A DNA stretch of 24,878 nucleotides from a virus. This document shows positions 1,941 to 24,119 of the stretch, in pieces (the first letter of the stretch is position 1; every line of letters begins with the position of its first letter). The notes below the pieces were generated by a model. That model did not search any database and had not been told where the DNA came from. It saw only the letters and a program-made list of their open reading frames with translations. The stretch spans positions 1 to 24,878 of the IMG/VR virus record IMGVR_UViG_3300044530_000432; one strand, given 5' to 3'. Position numbers and translations under genes: made by a program.

Positions 1941-2154
1941 TTTTTATTTTTGTCTGGAGGTTGGGAAAAAAAATAAAAAAATAAAAAAAAATATTTTGGC
2001 GGGGAATTTCCGAAAAATAGAGGGTCAATTTTTTTTTTCAAAAACCCCTACACCCCTCAAAACACACTTTTTTTATTTAGTGTCCTATAAATAGGTCACT
2101 TAGGTGTACAAAAAACTTGACAAAGATAGATAACTAACTAAAAACCAATATATT
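1941..2154. other. Intergenic region, A/T tracts and an interrupted palindrome
   Basis: No coding frame is supported here. The first 100 bp consist of long A and T runs around a short G-rich patch. At 2045-2057 lies a C-rich stretch ending in TACACCCCT; a near-identical TACACCCCCT occurs at 4561-4570 on the other side of the accessory block. At 2079-2100 an interrupted palindrome has arms AGTG/CACT and CCTAT/ATAGG around a central AA. An isolated TATTTTTG (1945-1952) matches the Bacteroidota -7 consensus but sits too far from the next start to be called a promoter. Confidence 0.5.
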
Positions 2155-2769
2155 ATGATTGCTTCACTTGTATACAATACACAGGAATTGATCCCTATAT
2201 TACAGGATCAGATACCAGACATATTTTTGATTGATGCTGGAAGCTCTGAACCTATTCAAGGCTGCCATATAAGATACGAAACCAATCTATTTTGGGTGGG
2301 GAATTGGGATCGTTTTTTAAGGTCTACCAACTCCCAATATGTTTGGATGTTAAACTCAGATATCACAGGCGCAACCGTTGAAATGTACAATGTATTATTA
2401 CACTATGCAATATCAACCGACGCTTTTATAATTACGCCCGCGTTTAACAGCCCTCACAAAGTTTTTAATTCCATAGGCAATACAATAAGATCATCCAATT
2501 GGGTAGATATGGCAGCCCCATTAATAAACGTAAAAATGTATAAACAGCTGGGCGGTTTTGATTTATCGTTTAAAGGCTACTTTGCGGACATAGATTTGTG
2601 CTATAGGGCAAACCAGGAAAAAATGAAAATGTACATAGACGATACATTATATGTTAATCATCTAGGAGGATACACAGTAATAAAGGAAGCAAAGCATGAA
2701 CAGGCAAACATGGCTGATAATGATCTACTAATAAAAAAACATGGTAAAAGCTGGTTTGAATTGATCTAA
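2155..2769 (+). CDS. GT2-family glycosyltransferase
   Basis: The 204-residue protein is a compact GT-A/GT2 transferase: an N-terminal strand with YNTQ (7-10), IDAGS (26-30) around the nucleotide site, MLNSDI (65-70) in the place of the DxD loop, and the rhamnosyltransferase-like acceptor region GGFDLSFKGYFADIDLCYR (133-151), followed by a conserved late histidine in VNHLGG. It should add a hexose or deoxyhexose to a surface polysaccharide or virion protein. Unlike the three sugar genes before it, it contains six GATC sites, so it likely has a different origin from its left neighbours. It is convergent with the minus-strand operon; a hairpin terminator lies between them. Confidence 0.85.
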   Translation: MIASLVYNTQELIPILQDQIPDIFLIDAGSSEPIQGCHIRYETNLFWVGNWDRFLRSTNSQYVWMLNSDITGATVEMYNVLLHYAISTDAFIITPAFNSPHKVFNSIGNTIRSSNWVDMAAPLINVKMYKQLGGFDLSFKGYFADIDLCYRANQEKMKMYIDDTLYVNHLGGYTVIKEAKHEQANMADNDLLIKKHGKSWFELI

Positions 2770-2783
2770 ACCAGTAAGGAAGC

Positions 2784-2819
2784 AAAAAAATCCCTGCAAA
2801 GTATTAAAACAATGCAGGG
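2784..2819 (-). terminator. Rho-independent terminator of the minus-strand operon
   Basis: On the minus strand, a 7-bp stem formed by 2813-2819 and 2792-2798 (CCCTGCA/TGCAGGG, 14-nt loop) is followed by a TGCAGGG-distal run of seven T (the A run 2784-2790 on the plus strand). It begins 15 bp past the stop of the last operon gene. This is a textbook intrinsic terminator for leftward transcription. It may also slow rightward transcription from the glycosyltransferase gene, but no T run follows in that direction. Confidence 0.8.
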
Positions 2820-2833
2820 CATAAAGGTATTAA

Positions 2834-3007
2834 TTATAAAATTTCCCACAAAATATTAATTCCGTCATGTTCTACTATTTTTTGACCTTTTAAATAATTG
2901 ACTAATTTTTTAGCAGTTTCTAAATCAAACCACGAATTTAAACCTGTGCCTGCATTTAAGTAGGTATTATTTGCGTTTAATATCCTATATTTTATATTAT
3001 TTTTCAT
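2834..3007 (-). CDS. Small conserved-looking phage protein, 57 aa
   Basis: A 57-residue protein whose central GTGLNSWFDLETAKKLVNYLKGQKIVEHDG section reads like a compact alpha/beta fold (strand, helix, strand); function unknown. I place the start at 3007 (ATGAAAAAT), not at the longer possible start at 3085, because the longer form would overlap the 37-residue gene just upstream, and the 8-bp spacing from that gene's stop fits the operon. It is the last gene before the terminator. Confidence 0.65.
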   Translation of the reverse strand: MKNNIKYRILNANNTYLNAGTGLNSWFDLETAKKLVNYLKGQKIVEHDGINILWEIL

Positions 3008-3015
3008 ATAATTAG

Positions 3016-3129
3016 TTATTTGGTAAATGTTAAAAAGAATAAAATTGATAAGCCTAAAATTAAGAATCCCCAGTTGACAGCGCAAAGCATAGCAAATAAG
3101 CTGATCAATATAACGTATTTTGTTTTCAT
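3016..3129 (-). CDS. 37-aa membrane microprotein
   Basis: This short frame starts ATGAAAACAAAA at 3129 on the minus strand and ends TAA at 3018-3016, giving 37 residues. After a basic start (MKTK) the protein is almost wholly hydrophobic, with a central N-W-G that could mark a turn between two short membrane segments or a kink in one long helix. It fits exactly between its neighbours: 2 bp after the stop of the 65-residue gene and 8 bp before the 57-residue gene. That packing is the main reason to believe it is real. It is too short for standard gene finders. Function unknown; a membrane-active or envelope-targeted role is inference. Confidence 0.6.
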   Translation of the reverse strand: MKTKYVILISLFAMLCAVNWGFLILGLSILFFLTFTK

Positions 3130-3131
3130 GT

Positions 3132-3329
3132 CTATAAAATTATAAATGTGCAAAAGTCTTGAATGTCTGACGGGTGAATATTCCCATATTTGGCTGATGA
3201 ATAAAAACCTTGTTTTCTATATTTGTTTTTGAATGATTCCAAAGCTTTTAAAGCTTGTTTTTTGCTTTTATAGTTTGCTGTGGTTTCTATAGTGATTCCA
3301 TCAGGTGAAAATATTTGATACTTTGACAT
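3132..3329 (-). CDS. Small hypothetical protein, 65 aa
   Basis: A basic 65-residue protein beginning MSKYQIFSPDGITIE, followed by a lysine-rich helix (SKKQALKALESFKNKYRKQGFYSS) and a C-terminal strand. The beta-alpha-beta pattern suggests a small single-domain protein, but I do not recognise a function. It starts 2 bp after the stop of the Gp88-like gene and ends 2 bp before the microprotein start, so it belongs to the same transcript. Confidence 0.7.
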   Translation of the reverse strand: MSKYQIFSPDGITIETTANYKSKKQALKALESFKNKYRKQGFYSSAKYGNIHPSDIQDFCTFIIL

Positions 3330-3331
3330 AT

Positions 3332-4075
3332 TTACAAGCTTTTAATATTGATCACAAAATTAGATGTCTCTTTTTTAGCTTTGCCTTTAGCAGATAAGCC
3401 CACTATGACATTGGCAGGATCTAAATATCTTAAGTCAGATTCATCCCCATTTATAACTGTATAGTTTAAATAAGTAGCTGGTAACTGACTAAATACTGCT
3501 GCAACATTCCCCCCCAGCTCTAAAAACTTTTTACATTCATGCTCATTTATTTCTGATCTGCTAAATGTCAGGCTGTAGTCAGTATCTAAATACTTTACAG
3601 CTCTTTTATAATTTTTTGTATAGTCATAAAATTTAAGGTTTGCAAAATCTGTTAATATATCCTTATTAAGTTTAATGTTAATCAATTCGATAAAGTCTAA
3701 ATCTGATGTGCCGTTTAAACGTATTGCAATTGCTTTATTTTCAAGCATTGCCTCGGCATTAATTAAGTAAAGCTCCTTATATAATTGAGTTAAAAATCCG
3801 ATGGGATCACTAAAAAACAAATCTGTTTTGCGTTGCCTTGCTGCCTGTACATTGCTAAATTTACCCATCCCCGCAGTATTAAGACAAGCAGCTGCACAGC
3901 CTGCCGAGGCATTTCCGCATACATTTTTACCAAATGAATTCTGTTTATAAGGTGACAAATAAAGTATATAAGATTCTACTATATGCTGATTTTTAGCTGT
4001 TTTGCTGTTAGTAGATCCGTGAGATAGTAATTTGTTTTTAAAGTTTGATCTGGTTTGTAGTGCTGTGTTTTTCAT
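3332..4075 (-). CDS. Gp88-family phage protein (possible metal/iron-sulfur cluster protein)
   Basis: The 247-residue product matches what I recall of the Gp88 phage family: LSPYKQNSFGKNVC (40-53), the cysteine cluster C53-X6-C60-X3-C64 in the NVCGNASAGCAAAC segment followed by LNTAGMGKF, VQAARQRKTDLFF (76-88), RLNGTSDLDF (119-128), YDYTKNYKRAVKY (150-162), LTFSRSE (169-175) and a C-terminal IVGLSAKGKAKK (224-235). The three cysteines in front of a barrel-like fold are reminiscent of radical-SAM-type cluster binding, but the spacing is not the classical CxxxCxxC, and the biochemical role is unknown. It is the first gene of a minus-strand operon with its own promoter, running against the late genes. 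It contains six GATC sites, unlike the phage backbone. Confidence 0.75.
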   Translation of the reverse strand: MKNTALQTRSNFKNKLLSHGSTNSKTAKNQHIVESYILYLSPYKQNSFGKNVCGNASAGCAAACLNTAGMGKFSNVQAARQRKTDLFFSDPIGFLTQLYKELYLINAEAMLENKAIAIRLNGTSDLDFIELINIKLNKDILTDFANLKFYDYTKNYKRAVKYLDTDYSLTFSRSEINEHECKKFLELGGNVAAVFSQLPATYLNYTVINGDESDLRYLDPANVIVGLSAKGKAKKETSNFVINIKSL

Positions 4076-4111
4076 AATAATAGTTATTTTTGTTTATTGT
4101 TAATTATGGCA

Positions 4112-4143
4112 CAAATATATATAAATAGTTATTTAACTATCAA
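4112..4143 (-). promoter_or_regulatory. Candidate promoter of the minus-strand operon
   Basis: Reading the minus strand, TTG (4143-4141) is followed after 21 bp by TATATTTG (4119-4112), an exact match to the Bacteroidota -7 element TAnnTTTG. It lies 36 bp before the start codon of the Gp88-like gene, in the divergent gap with the HNH gene. On the plus strand the region contains ATATATAAATAGTTATT (4117-4133), which recurs exactly at 23857-23873 in another promoter region. Confidence 0.55.
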
Positions 4144-4187
4144 GAAGTATTTTGTATCTTACTACTAATCAATACAATAAAATTAAT

Positions 4188-4499
4188 ATGCCAATCAAAC
4201 CAGTAAGTAATAAAGTAAATAAAACAGGATCACAGTATAGTAATGGAACAGCAGGTAATTTTTATTCGTGTGCTGCCTGGTTAAAATTACGGAATTATAA
4301 AAGGTTATTGAATCCCATTTGCGAGAGCTGCGAAAAGTTGGATCTCATAATTCCATACCATACAATTGACCACATCAAACCAATAAGCGAGGGCGGAGCT
4401 GCTTTGGATCTCGCAAACCTGCAAACCTTATGTAAACAATGCCATGCTATTAAAACAGGCAAAGAAACTAGTAAACGCAACCACATAAAAAACAGATAG
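4188..4499 (+). CDS. HNH endonuclease
   Basis: The protein has the HNH/beta-beta-alpha-metal nuclease signature: two CxxC zinc pairs (C45/C48 and C82/C85), the catalytic DH (61-62) in YHTIDHIKPISEGG, N78 in LANLQTLC, and H86 after the second CxxC. In HK97-like phages such small HNH proteins lie next to the terminase genes and assist DNA cutting at packaging. A TTG start at 4152 is possible, but I chose the ATG at 4188 (MPIKPVSNK), which gives 103 residues and an A-rich leader. It lies 177 bp before terS with a palindrome and a hairpin in between. It carries three GATC sites and so belongs compositionally to the accessory block rather than to the backbone it serves. Confidence 0.85.
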   Translation: MPIKPVSNKVNKTGSQYSNGTAGNFYSCAAWLKLRNYKRLLNPICESCEKLDLIIPYHTIDHIKPISEGGAALDLANLQTLCKQCHAIKTGKETSKRNHIKNR

Positions 4500-4512
4500 T
4501 TAAGTATAAAAG

Positions 4513-4530
4513 TGTCTAGTATACTGGACA
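4513..4530. repeat. 18-bp near-perfect palindrome before terS
   Basis: TGTCTAGTATACTGGACA reads the same on both strands except for one symmetric pair (T4517 opposite G4526). The core AGTATACT is perfect. Such dyads are bound by dimeric proteins or cut symmetrically. Its position between the HNH and terminase genes makes a packaging or regulatory site plausible. Confidence 0.6.
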
Positions 4531-4540
4531 AAAGCCCATA

Positions 4541-4570
4541 GGGGGGTGTCTACTTTATTGTACACCCCCT
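4541..4570. repeat. GC-rich stem-loop between HNH and terS genes
   Basis: GGGGGTGT (4542-4549) pairs perfectly with ACACCCCC (4562-4569) across a 12-nt loop, with one further G-T pair outside. No T run follows on either strand, so it is not a standard intrinsic terminator. In an AT-rich sequence such a G/C block beside the terminase genes could be a terminator, a packaging-site element or a boundary scar of the accessory block. Confidence 0.6.
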
Positions 4571-4606
4571 GCTAACCACTGGATTAATTAAATGTACATA
4601 TTGGCA

Positions 4607-4676: not shown

Positions 4677-5147
4677 ATGAACACAACAAAACCAACAGAA
4701 TTAAAGAAGATGCAAGGCACTTATCGGAAAGACCGAGATAAAAGTGCAGATTTGAAGCCATCAATGGAAATTGGCTTAGAAGCTCCAGATGATTTGAACG
4801 AATGGGGGCAAAAGTTATGGACTGAGATTTTTACCGAGTACGGCAAAGTAGGATTAATTACTAGAGTTGACTTAGGGTCATTTCATTCTTTGTGTAGTTG
4901 GTATGGAATTTTTAGAGAAGCCGAAGATATTGTAAGAGGAAAAGGACTAGAAGTAGAAGAAGAGGTTTATAGCAAAGATGGTCAAGTAGTCGGAACCAAG
5001 ACAATTACCAATCCAATGATAATGGTTATGGATAAAGCACAAAAGAATTATCTTGCAATGGCTAAAGAGTTTGGAGTAACACCAAGTAGTAGAGCTGCAT
5101 TAAGTTTTGAGGCTAAAAAAGAGTCGGACCCATTTAGCGATTTTTAA
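4677..5147 (+). CDS. terS: Terminase small subunit (P27 family)
   Basis: The 156-residue protein fits the P27-type small terminase: N-terminal LKKMQGTYRKDRD (9-21), a helical middle with LWTEIFTEYGKVGLITRVDLGSFHSLC, an NPMIMVMDKAQKNYLAMAKEFGV helix and the FGVTPSSR motif (132-139) near the end. Small terminase rings recognise the packaging site and hand DNA to the large subunit. It is followed by terL after 2 bp. Length is normal for the family. Confidence 0.85.
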   Translation: MNTTKPTELKKMQGTYRKDRDKSADLKPSMEIGLEAPDDLNEWGQKLWTEIFTEYGKVGLITRVDLGSFHSLCSWYGIFREAEDIVRGKGLEVEEEVYSKDGQVVGTKTITNPMIMVMDKAQKNYLAMAKEFGVTPSSRAALSFEAKKESDPFSDF

Positions 5148-5149
5148 TT

Positions 5150-6799
5150 ATGACTAAATACGAAACATACATAAGCGATGTGATTAGCGGTAAAGTAAAT
5201 CACGGCAAGCAAATAAAGAAACTTTGCGAGAAACTTAATAGCGAATTAGTTTTAAGTGATGACTATTACTTTGATTCAGTAGAAGCTGACCGATATATAA
5301 AATTTATTGAACGATTAAGTTTAACAGAATCTAGATGGGCAGGTAAACCATTTTTGCTAGAAGATTGGCAAGCATTTATTATTGCGATGACTTTTGGGTG
5401 GAAATCTAAACGAACCAACTTAAGAAGATTTGATGAAGTTACTGTTCACGTTCCTAAGAAAAATGGCAAGACAAGTTTGGCTGCATCCATTGCAATAGCC
5501 TACGCATTTTTGGAACAATCCGATTATGCAGGTCAGATTTACATGGCTGCAACAAATAGAGAACAAGCTAATATCTGTTTTAAGGCAGTAAAAAGAACGG
5601 TTCAACTTACACCAAGTTTGCAGAACTATTTTAAAGTTATGCAGTTTGCCGTAATTAGCAATCGCAACCAAACAAACATTAAAGCATTGTCTGGTGACGC
5701 ACCAAGTGTTGAGGGTTTTGGTTCATCTTTGGTAATCTTTGATGAGTACCATTTGCAGAAAACGGATGAGTTAAAAGAAAATTTAATTACAGGTCAAGCT
5801 GCAAGGCAAGGCGCATTGTTCTTTTCTATTAGTACGGCAGGAACAGATAAGAATGGTCCATATTTTACCCACATCAAAAACTGCAAAAACATTTTAAACG
5901 GATTAAGTCAAGTTGAAAGTCACCTAGTTGTGTTGTATGAATCTGACTCAGAGGATTGGCGGGATGAGGAAGTTTGGAAACAAGCTAATCCAAATTACGG
6001 AGTTTCGGTATTGCCAGACAAATTAGAAAAGGAATTTAAGTCGGCATTAGAGCAGCCTAGTAAGCAACCATCATTTATTACCAAACACTTAAACATTTGG
6101 GCAGATTCAGCTAAAACTTGGATTGATTCTAATAAGTGGGGAAGTTTGGGAATATGCGATTCAATAGAAAACTATTATGGACAAATCGCTTACATTGGAT
6201 TAGACTTAGGTTCAACGGGTGACTTCTCAGCATTATCAATTCTGATTCCTAGTGAAGATAGAACTAAAATGAGATGTTTTATGAAGTTTTACATCCCCGA
6301 AGATATGGCTAATAAGCGTACTAGGGCTGACCAATTAAACTTTAGGCAATGGGCAAGGGATGGCTACATTACTTTGACTGAGGGTAATGCGACAGACTAC
6401 AATTATATCAAAAAGGATATTCTTGAGATATGCTCAAAGTTTGATTACAAGCCAATTGCATACGATAAAGCTTTGGCATCAATGTTTATGATTCAACTTT
6501 ACAATGACTATTCTATTAACGTAGAAGCATTTAGTCAATCTGTTGGCTCAGTAACTGGACCGACCAAACAAATGTACGAGTGGATTATGAATGAAACTTT
6601 AATCCATGACAATAACCCAGTAATGGCTTGGATGATTAGTAACGTAGAAGTTTACCAAGATGATGCAAATGGAAACTATAAAATTCACAAAGGTAAATCT
6701 AAAAACAAAGTGGATGGACCTTGTGCATTAGTAAACGCAGTTGGAAGGGCATTAGAGGATTGGAAGGATAACCCATTAATTGAAAACTATGTATTCTAA
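5150..6799 (+). CDS. terL: Terminase large subunit (Terminase_1 type)
   Basis: The 549-residue packaging motor has an N-terminal ATPase with an FLLEDWQAFI adenine-binding region (68-77), a deviant Walker A VPKKNGKT (101-108), Walker B LVIFDE (194-199) and coupling motif SISTAGT (226-232). The C-terminal RNase H-like nuclease begins at IGLDLGSTGDFS (349-360), where D352 is a likely metal ligand, and includes a further acidic strand at YDKALASMFM. Length and motif order are those of HK97-like terminases. It powers DNA entry into the prohead and cuts the concatemer, probably together with the HNH protein upstream. Confidence 0.95.
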   Translation: MTKYETYISDVISGKVNHGKQIKKLCEKLNSELVLSDDYYFDSVEADRYIKFIERLSLTESRWAGKPFLLEDWQAFIIAMTFGWKSKRTNLRRFDEVTVHVPKKNGKTSLAASIAIAYAFLEQSDYAGQIYMAATNREQANICFKAVKRTVQLTPSLQNYFKVMQFAVISNRNQTNIKALSGDAPSVEGFGSSLVIFDEYHLQKTDELKENLITGQAARQGALFFSISTAGTDKNGPYFTHIKNCKNILNGLSQVESHLVVLYESDSEDWRDEEVWKQANPNYGVSVLPDKLEKEFKSALEQPSKQPSFITKHLNIWADSAKTWIDSNKWGSLGICDSIENYYGQIAYIGLDLGSTGDFSALSILIPSEDRTKMRCFMKFYIPEDMANKRTRADQLNFRQWARDGYITLTEGNATDYNYIKKDILEICSKFDYKPIAYDKALASMFMIQLYNDYSINVEAFSQSVGSVTGPTKQMYEWIMNETLIHDNNPVMAWMISNVEVYQDDANGNYKIHKGKSKNKVDGPCALVNAVGRALEDWKDNPLIENYVF

Positions 6800-19732: not shown

Positions 19733-19996
19733 ATGATAGAGCAAACACAAAATTACCCTTGCTTTTTTGCTTGTAAAAGTGAAGCAGAGTTTCAAAGTTT
19801 AGATACTCAGGCGTGCGAATTGTTAAACTTTCCAAATGCTGGCGCTTTAGATTATTGTAATCCGATTATAGACGTTAACGGGGTTTATTATTTTACTGTC
19901 AATCCTGAGGTGACTTCTTTATTTACTAAAAAGCAATTAGACACTTGCATACCTTACGAGGATATTGTTTTGCCAACACCTGAGCCGATAGGATAA
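19733..19996 (+). CDS. Small hypothetical protein after the fibre gene, 87 aa
   Basis: An 87-residue acidic protein with four cysteines (positions about 10, 14, 28 and 42, plus one near 72), ending in a Pro-rich tail (LPTPEPIG). It follows the fibre gene by 2 bp and overlaps the PAS gene start by 1 bp (TAATG). Position suggests a fibre chaperone or fibre-tip accessory, but no family is recognised. Confidence 0.6.
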   Translation: MIEQTQNYPCFFACKSEAEFQSLDTQACELLNFPNAGALDYCNPIIDVNGVYYFTVNPEVTSLFTKKQLDTCIPYEDIVLPTPEPIG

Positions 19997-20742
19997 TGAG
20001 AAACTTACCTAAAGAAGAATTACTTAGCAGACTAGAAGCGATTAATAGAAGCAACGCTATTATCTACTTTGACCTTAACGGCTTTATTCTTGGCGTAAAT
20101 GCAATCTTTTTGAAGGCTATGGGCTTTCAAGAAGATGAGCATGACAAGCTAATTGGCAAGCATCACTCTATCTTTGTTGATTACGAGTATGGTAAGTCGG
20201 AAGAATATGTAAAGTTTTGGGAAGTGCTACGAAGCGGAAAGTTCTTCGAAGGAGAGTTTGAAAGGAAGAAGATTGATGGCAGCCCAATTTATTTGCAGGC
20301 TACCTATAACCCAATCTTTGATGAAGACGGAAACATCACTAAAATAATGAAGATTGCAACCGATATTTCTCAGATGGTTGTAAGTAAAAAAAAGATTGAT
20401 GAATTATCCGCAACTTTACAAGCAGAATTAGAGAACTCAAACAAGCTAAAAGAAGCGATTGAAATAGAAAAGGATGCGGCTTTAAACGACCTAGACGCAA
20501 GTATCAAAAAAAGCCAAAACGAACTGATTAAAGTGATTGTGAAAAGTGCTTTATTTGTGATAATGAGCGTGGGCTTCATTACAACTATCATGTATTCATT
20601 CGCTATCTTATCAAACAAAGATACTCAGATAATCGGTTCAACGTGGTCAAATATGTTTAGTGTATTATTAACTAACGCATTCTCTATTGTCGGAACTATT
20701 ATGGGTATCAAATACGCAACCTCAGATAATCAACCAAAATAA
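19996..20742 (+). CDS. PAS-domain protein with coiled coil and C-terminal two-helix membrane hairpin
   Basis: The 248-residue protein has a PAS domain at about 12-127: AIIYFDLNGFILGVNAIFLKAMGF, IGKHHSIFV, EYVKFWEVLRSGKFFEGEFERKKIDGSPIYLQATYNPIFDEDGNITKIMKIATDIS. This is the type found in chemoreceptors and Aer-like sensors. A charged coiled coil follows (about 128-178), then two strongly hydrophobic segments (about 179-206 and 217-240) separated by a short polar loop. No kinase, cyclase, HAMP or chemoreceptor signalling domain is present. It directly precedes the endolysin gene (2-bp gap), in a place where holins are encoded. The membrane hairpin with a soluble N-terminal sensor resembles a class II holin carrying a sensory domain (inference). 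Alternatives are a superinfection or host-signalling protein. Confidence 0.75.
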   Translation: MRNLPKEELLSRLEAINRSNAIIYFDLNGFILGVNAIFLKAMGFQEDEHDKLIGKHHSIFVDYEYGKSEEYVKFWEVLRSGKFFEGEFERKKIDGSPIYLQATYNPIFDEDGNITKIMKIATDISQMVVSKKKIDELSATLQAELENSNKLKEAIEIEKDAALNDLDASIKKSQNELIKVIVKSALFVIMSVGFITTIMYSFAILSNKDTQIIGSTWSNMFSVLLTNAFSIVGTIMGIKYATSDNQPK

Positions 20743-24015: not shown

Positions 24016-24101
24016 AGTCAGGTGGCGGAATGGTAGACGCTTGCTTCCCATAAGAACAGCAAATCCTTAGAGATTACAAGGTTCGAATCCTGTCCTGACT
24101 A
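24016..24101 (+). tRNA. tRNA, class II with Leu-type body, irregular anticodon arm (CAT in loop)
   Basis: The 7-bp acceptor stem AGTCAGG (24016-24022) with CCTGACT (24094-24100) is perfect, with A24101 as discriminator and no encoded CCA. The D arm TGGCGGAATGGTAGACGC is the Leu type. A long variable arm (AATC/GATT stem) makes it class II, and the T loop is canonical (GTTCGAATC). Two arms are irregular. The anticodon stem TGCTT/GAACA has a C-A mismatch and a T-G pair, and its loop CCCATAA has C instead of T at position 33, giving CAT as anticodon. The T stem ACAAGG/CCTGT needs one bulged A. It is either a degenerate tRNA or one with an unusual function; amino acid identity is uncertain. Confidence 0.7.
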
Positions 24102-24119
24102 CAAAAACCAATTAACAAT

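Follow-up and report, generated by a model that had tools for sequence, protein, structure and literature searches.

All GATC sites of a phage contig lie in a recombinant module carrying a Gp88 operon

Introduction

Why should a palindrome that is missing from almost an entire phage genome be frequent in one small part of it? The question is raised by IMG/VR record IMGVR_UViG_3300044530_000432, a virus contig of 24,878 bases (the whole of which we call the window) with terminase, portal, protease, capsid, tail and lysis genes. Phages that avoid restriction sites are already known, as are mosaic modules, and site-rich exceptions to avoidance have been reported; the present locus is a clean new case that comes with an unexplained enrichment. 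All 46 phages with hosts encoding a GATC enzyme under-use GATC in the survey of palindrome avoidance by Rusinov et al. 2018 (PMC6286503). As in that survey, short type II palindromes including GATC are depleted genome-wide here; in the present phage, by contrast, depletion reaches zero for four words, and one recombinant tract is exempt from it and enriched instead.

Results

GATC is absent from the backbone and avoided in related phages

An exact recount of the window agreed with a previous sequence-only reading, finding 16 GATC sites at exactly the positions listed there (2190 to 4407) and none elsewhere in the 24,878 bases. The several dozen sites that had been expected in the backbone correspond to 49.8 under a maximal-order Markov model, against none observed in the other ~22.7 kb. 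The left part of this GATC-free backbone (positions 1-2102) contains glycosyltransferases and an FkbM methyltransferase, and the right part (4501-24878) contains terminase, head, tail and lysis genes and a tRNA-Met gene.

Synonymous-codon shuffling of the 33 backbone genes (21.6 kb) gave an expectation of 52.5 GATC sites against the observed zero. The lowest count over 300 shuffles was 38. With a z of -10.3, GATC is avoided more strongly in these genes than any other of the 256 tetramers. The count is far below both the composition-based and the codon-based expectation, as in restriction-site avoidance. The most over-represented tetramer is GACC (51 against 23.1 expected, z 7.1), which is one transition away from GATC; its excess would be expected if sites had been lost by synonymous substitution. 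Running across the whole backbone, this excess looks like a scar of synonymous GATC loss. Comparison of palindromic 4-mers with Markov expectation showed that CCGG (observed/expected 0/14), CGCG (0/19) and GGCC (0/23) are also absent from the backbone, so that depletion is complete for four words where GATC alone had been named before.

Relatives, taken as clades of IMG/VR contigs, were compared by observed/expected word counts. In the clade of the window the values for GATC are 0/50 (the window itself), 0/19 and 0/54 (relatives at 95% identity). They are 2/89 in an 88% clade, 5/170 in a 76% clade (relatives at 74-78%) and 13/52 in a clade sharing about half of its terminase residues. Near-absence of GATC is common to related genomes down to ~74% DNA identity. 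Neither a backbone GATC count near expectation nor close relatives with block and backbone equally poor in GATC were found; the backbones of close relatives are GATC-free.

Other palindromes behave differently. When the window was set against contigs L005, L048, L049, L060 and L061 and against L007, L009, L011, L013 and L051-L053, the observed/expected count of CTAG was 50/69 in the window, 1/111 in the 88% clade and 0/172 in the 76% clade; CATG stood at 30/66 in the window versus 0/144 in relatives, and GGCC at 0/23 versus 55/87. CTAG, CATG and GGCC avoidance is thus lost or kept clade by clade, whereas GATC avoidance is common to all clades. Because the avoidance covers a number of classical type II palindromes together, in a set that switches between clades, we read it as restriction, and the turnover of words, with GATC as its constant member, points to changing sets of type II host enzymes. 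The earlier proposal that the backbone evolved under a GATC-specific enzyme thus stands as regards strong, long-standing selection against GATC, but the pressure falls on a set of palindromes that changes between clades.

Genome map and the likely cos end

Contig L114 overlaps both the right end of the window (127 bases, 100% identity) and its left end (1,591 bases, 96%), so that the genome map closes at ~32.8 kb. The missing part is spanned by L113, a 98%-identical relative with no GATC outside the block, and encodes a primase-helicase, a NinG-like gene, a DnaA C-terminal-like gene and an N6/N4-type DNA methyltransferase. In L114 unrelated sequence takes the place of the methyltransferase gene (L113:1986-2642), and no such gene was found in L117. 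Among the PDB matches of the L113 enzyme are proteins named DpnA, together with MboIIA, CcrM and RsrI, enzymes with other specificities, and no specificity can be inferred from them. Replication genes vary as well, with a PrimPol/VirE-like primase and a helicase in L117 (4296-7906) and a primase-DnaB fusion in L113 (4415-6148).

Five contigs of relatives (L004, L009, L011, L012 and L013) have as their first base the equivalent of window position 4587, between the HNH endonuclease gene and the small terminase gene, and L005 probably does likewise. The position falls within a conserved motif, CACTGGATnnnTwAAATGTA (4577-4596, plus strand), and 4587 most likely marks the cos end; the linear genome would then have the GATC-bearing block at its right-hand end. 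An inverted repeat (AGGGGGGTGT...ACACCCCCT, 4530-4575) lies between the HNH gene and the likely cos and may act as a terminator or bind terminase. The small terminase subunit (4677-5147, plus strand) is the first backbone gene to the right of the block and is followed by the large subunit (5150-6799, plus strand), also in GATC-free backbone. The order of HNH gene, likely cos, terS and terL, with HNH ahead of both terminase genes, matches that of HK97-type cos phages (gp74); here, in contrast, the HNH gene belongs to an exchanged module together with a Gp88 operon, and the cos is a predicted one.

In phage P1 the pac site contains clustered GATC, and the sites described here likewise lie near the likely start of packaging. 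They are, however, spread across 2.2 kb of genes, with none less than 170 bp from the likely cos. A P1-like, methylation-controlled pac site was rejected, there being no tight cluster and the nearest GATC lying at 4407, with the likely cos at 4587.

Two further features of the map may be mentioned. A tRNA-Met (CAT) gene is located near the right end (24016-24102), and positions 19996-20742 encode a 248-aa protein that by eye resembles a PAS domain followed by hydrophobic segments, unusual for a phage tail/lysis region; a PADLOC search with this protein gave no match.

Genes of the GATC-bearing module

The first gene of the module (2155-2769, plus strand; 204 aa, 6 GATC) was taken as a GT2 glycosyltransferase in the sequence-only reading, in agreement with its context, and has no Pfam or PHROG match. 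It has GATC-free homologues in L117 (71% identity) and L142 (52%), a distant relative in which the gene sits in a glycosyltransferase cassette adjoining terL.

The Gp88 operon is located on the minus strand. It comprises an orphan gene of 83 aa (2834-3085) found only in the window, L002 and L113, a gene of 65 aa (3132-3329) with a weak, below-cut-off match to DUF7204, and the Gp88 family gene itself (3332-4075; PF17338, E 4.8e-36), which contains 6 GATC. Three conserved cysteines of Gp88 (C53, C60 and C64) are invariant and suggest metal binding. An AlphaFold2 model of Gp88 (pLDDT 86) gave weak but no significant matches in the PDB; these are mostly enzymes that we take to be TIM barrels, and we claim no function from them. 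Directly upstream of Gp88 there is a candidate Bacteroidota-type promoter (TTG-21-TATATTTG; 4112-4143, minus strand), a pattern match of a kind that occurs 11 times in the window.

The last gene of the module encodes an HNH endonuclease (4152-4499, plus strand; likely start ATG 4185; PF01844, E 4e-14; 3 GATC), homologues of which directly precede the terminase genes in many distant relatives. The description of the block as accessory is therefore apt for the Gp88 operon, which looks like an insert, but not for the GT2 and HNH genes, which have homologues in relatives.

The module is a recombinant tract

Comparison of the window with L003 defined the GATC-bearing module as a recombinant tract (2103-4500), its edges being set where identity to L003 changes. 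To the right, ~3.3 kb reaching from terS into the portal gene has 6 differences (~99.8% identity), and the left non-coding flank has 1 in 86 nt, versus ~400 in the 2.4 kb of the tract, or roughly 15%. Identity to L003 is 83% for GT2, 60% for the 83-aa gene, 88% for Gp88 and 94.5% for HNH. Comparison with L113 gave 31 differences in 2103-2310 and then none over 2.4 kb. Different alleles of the module have therefore been exchanged in near-identical backbones, with the sharp identity change at both edges that characterizes mosaic modules. Edges in or near non-coding DNA had been proposed; the left edge (~2103) is non-coding, and the right edge is at the HNH stop codon (~4500). The composition of the tract is also atypical, its di-, tri- and tetranucleotide signature lying outside those of all 90 backbone windows.

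Contig L117 has neither a Gp88 operon nor any GATC. Its GT2 and HNH proteins are 70-71% identical to those of the window, versus 92-94% for neighbouring glycosyltransferases, and the zero GATC count of these two genes is, taken alone, only suggestive (1.9 expected). Since the GT2 and HNH homologues in L117 and the GT2 homologue in L142 are GATC-free, GATC content reflects the history of the alleles, not the genes.

The block is carried by four contigs (the window, L002, L003 and L113), so its GATC sites are evidently tolerated. Because two GATC-rich alleles, diverged by 15%, occupy near-identical backbones, at least two exchanges are required. Searches for a donor with GT2, HNH and Gp88 found no GATC-rich donor genome.

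Some Gp88 cassettes are enriched in GATC

In coding sequence of the block there are 15 GATC sites against 7.5 expected from its own codon shuffle, a number that none of 1000 shuffles reached. The L003 module has 18 against 9.2; the two enrichments are not independent, having 12 sites in common. Gene windows of block size were taken as controls from 14 other phages, and none of the 88 was enriched in this way (P <= 0.005). Between the module alleles 4 of the 16 sites are lost and 7 are gained, so that no purging is visible. The earlier view of the block as a recent import from a lineage without pressure is thus upheld in that the tract is recombinant, but it has to accommodate repeated exchange, and its absence of pressure does not by itself predict a roughly twofold excess of GATC.

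A second, unrelated phage family (L081, L084-L087) has a Gp88 gene beside a small-terminase-like gene. In L081, the 1.9 kb that includes the Gp88 operon (L081:1-1900) has 9 GATC, and the remaining genes have none, against 15.6 expected. The Gp88 operons of L084-L087 are 1.5-fold enriched in GATC over the codon shuffle (P <= 0.004; L084:6590-9150, L087:400-2550), and GATC outside the operon is at 0.7-0.84 times expectation where measured (L084 and L087). This second Gp88 family, with a GATC-bearing cassette in a GATC-poor genome, does not fit plain import. The Gp88 operons of L081 and L084 have diverged as much as the backbones have, and separate import is therefore not evident there. Gp88 itself is unsupported as the cause of GATC richness: in the GATC-free phages L097-L105 and L107 the Gp88 genes are GATC-free too, and Gp88 phages L065-L079 show no GATC enrichment.

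The enrichment is the chief strength of the main rival explanation, according to which selection for some function keeps or favours GATC near the Gp88 cassette at this end of the genome; methylation-dependent expression, packaging or injection may be imagined. The twofold excess in two alleles, unequalled in the control windows, is joined on this side by the similar pattern of the unrelated family and by the N6-adenine type methyltransferase gene of L113. The sites, however, turn over between alleles, are spread through coding sequence and have no extended motif in common; L117 has GT2 and HNH genes without GATC, the Gp88 genes of L065-L079, L097-L105 and L107 are not GATC-rich, and the module bears independent signs of recombination. 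We regard such a local exemption as unlikely, if the best placed of the alternatives. The more specific proposal, that two or more unrelated phage families which otherwise purge GATC positively maintain it in Gp88 cassettes beside the terminase end, where it would be functional, perhaps via methylation, seems to us doubtful to a slightly greater degree.

Restriction enzymes and the probable host

Named-phage best relatives of the L113 methyltransferase are mostly flavobacterial, and Flavobacterium phage lillamy9-7 has a similar avoidance profile (observed/expected GATC 2/66, CGCG 1/30, GGCC 2/17, CTAG 6/72). Flavobacterium psychrophilum CSF259-93 encodes HpaII (CCGG), FnuDII (CGCG) and ScrFI (CCNGG) systems together with a GATC methyltransferase (PMC11837570), and may serve as a precedent for a host with a matching set of enzymes. 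With the Bacteroidota-like promoter added to these three lines, a flavobacterium-like host is likely. Alignment of the terminase against genome contigs gave two matches only, both to distant terminases, and a near-identity search among named phages gave none.

Avoidance might instead stem from another GATC-directed process, for example a methyl-specific or phage-borne nuclease. No partner nuclease was detected for the GATC methyltransferase of F. psychrophilum CSF259-93 (PMC11837570), which would suit such a process; the joint avoidance of classical type II palindromes, in a set that varies by clade, would not, and we consider this improbable. A still weaker proposal is that the pressure is over for this phage, because it is no longer exposed or because its own methyltransferase protects it, and that the block merely regained its sites. 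It can draw on the four block-carrying contigs and on the methyltransferase gene of L113, but sites should then return genome-wide, yet the rest stays at zero, L113 outside the block included. A genome-wide gain under relaxed selection is ruled out by the zero backbone count of all carriers, and an end of pressure acting on the block is highly improbable. For an assembly chimera or chance composition, which have next to no probability, no supporting point was found: both junctions recur in the independent contigs L002, L003 and L113, and uniform placement would put 16 sites inside 2.2 kb with p ~3e-15.

Discussion

We conclude that the backbone was probably purged of GATC by restriction and that the module was exchanged, its alleles probably coming from a lineage that was not selected against GATC. 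The backbone would belong to a cos-type, HK97-like family of freshwater phages that has long met hosts carrying type II restriction enzymes. One such enzyme, presumed from the observed avoidance, would cut GATC, with sites lost by mostly synonymous change. The 2.4-kb module near the genome end (GT2, Gp88 operon and HNH) would be swapped among phages by homologous recombination in its flanks; the mosaic pattern is observed, and the conserved non-coding flanks are the presumed route. The present alleles would derive from a donor lineage without selection against GATC, too recently for their sites to have been purged. Most likely, the module was taken from viruses that never faced the GATC-cutting enzyme behind the avoidance. 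The import reading is strained, because absence of selection leaves the roughly twofold enrichment unexplained and a second, unrelated family has a similar GATC-bearing Gp88 cassette.

Restriction sites are unevenly distributed in phage T5 as well, whose first-step-transfer DNA is without EcoRI sites. There the end of the genome is site-free, whereas here the end holds all the sites. A recombinant phage, T3(K12), offers another comparison. It is the exception to the T7-like phages of the BASEL collection, being a member of a site-poor group that has many sites for one type II enzyme (10 EcoRV sites) and is restricted (PMC8594841). The cost of restriction was measured for T3(K12); in the present phage, known from its sequence, the sites are confined to a defined module.

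A genome without GATC exposes any imported stretch and thus provides both a natural clock and a tracer, which reveals which module moves, where recombination falls and how slow the purging of restriction sites is. The words avoided clade by clade provide a means of inferring past host enzymes, and hence probable hosts, from the genomes of uncultured phages. The roughly twofold GATC excess in the module, with its echo in a second phage family, is unexplained but testable, and would be more interesting if it proved general.
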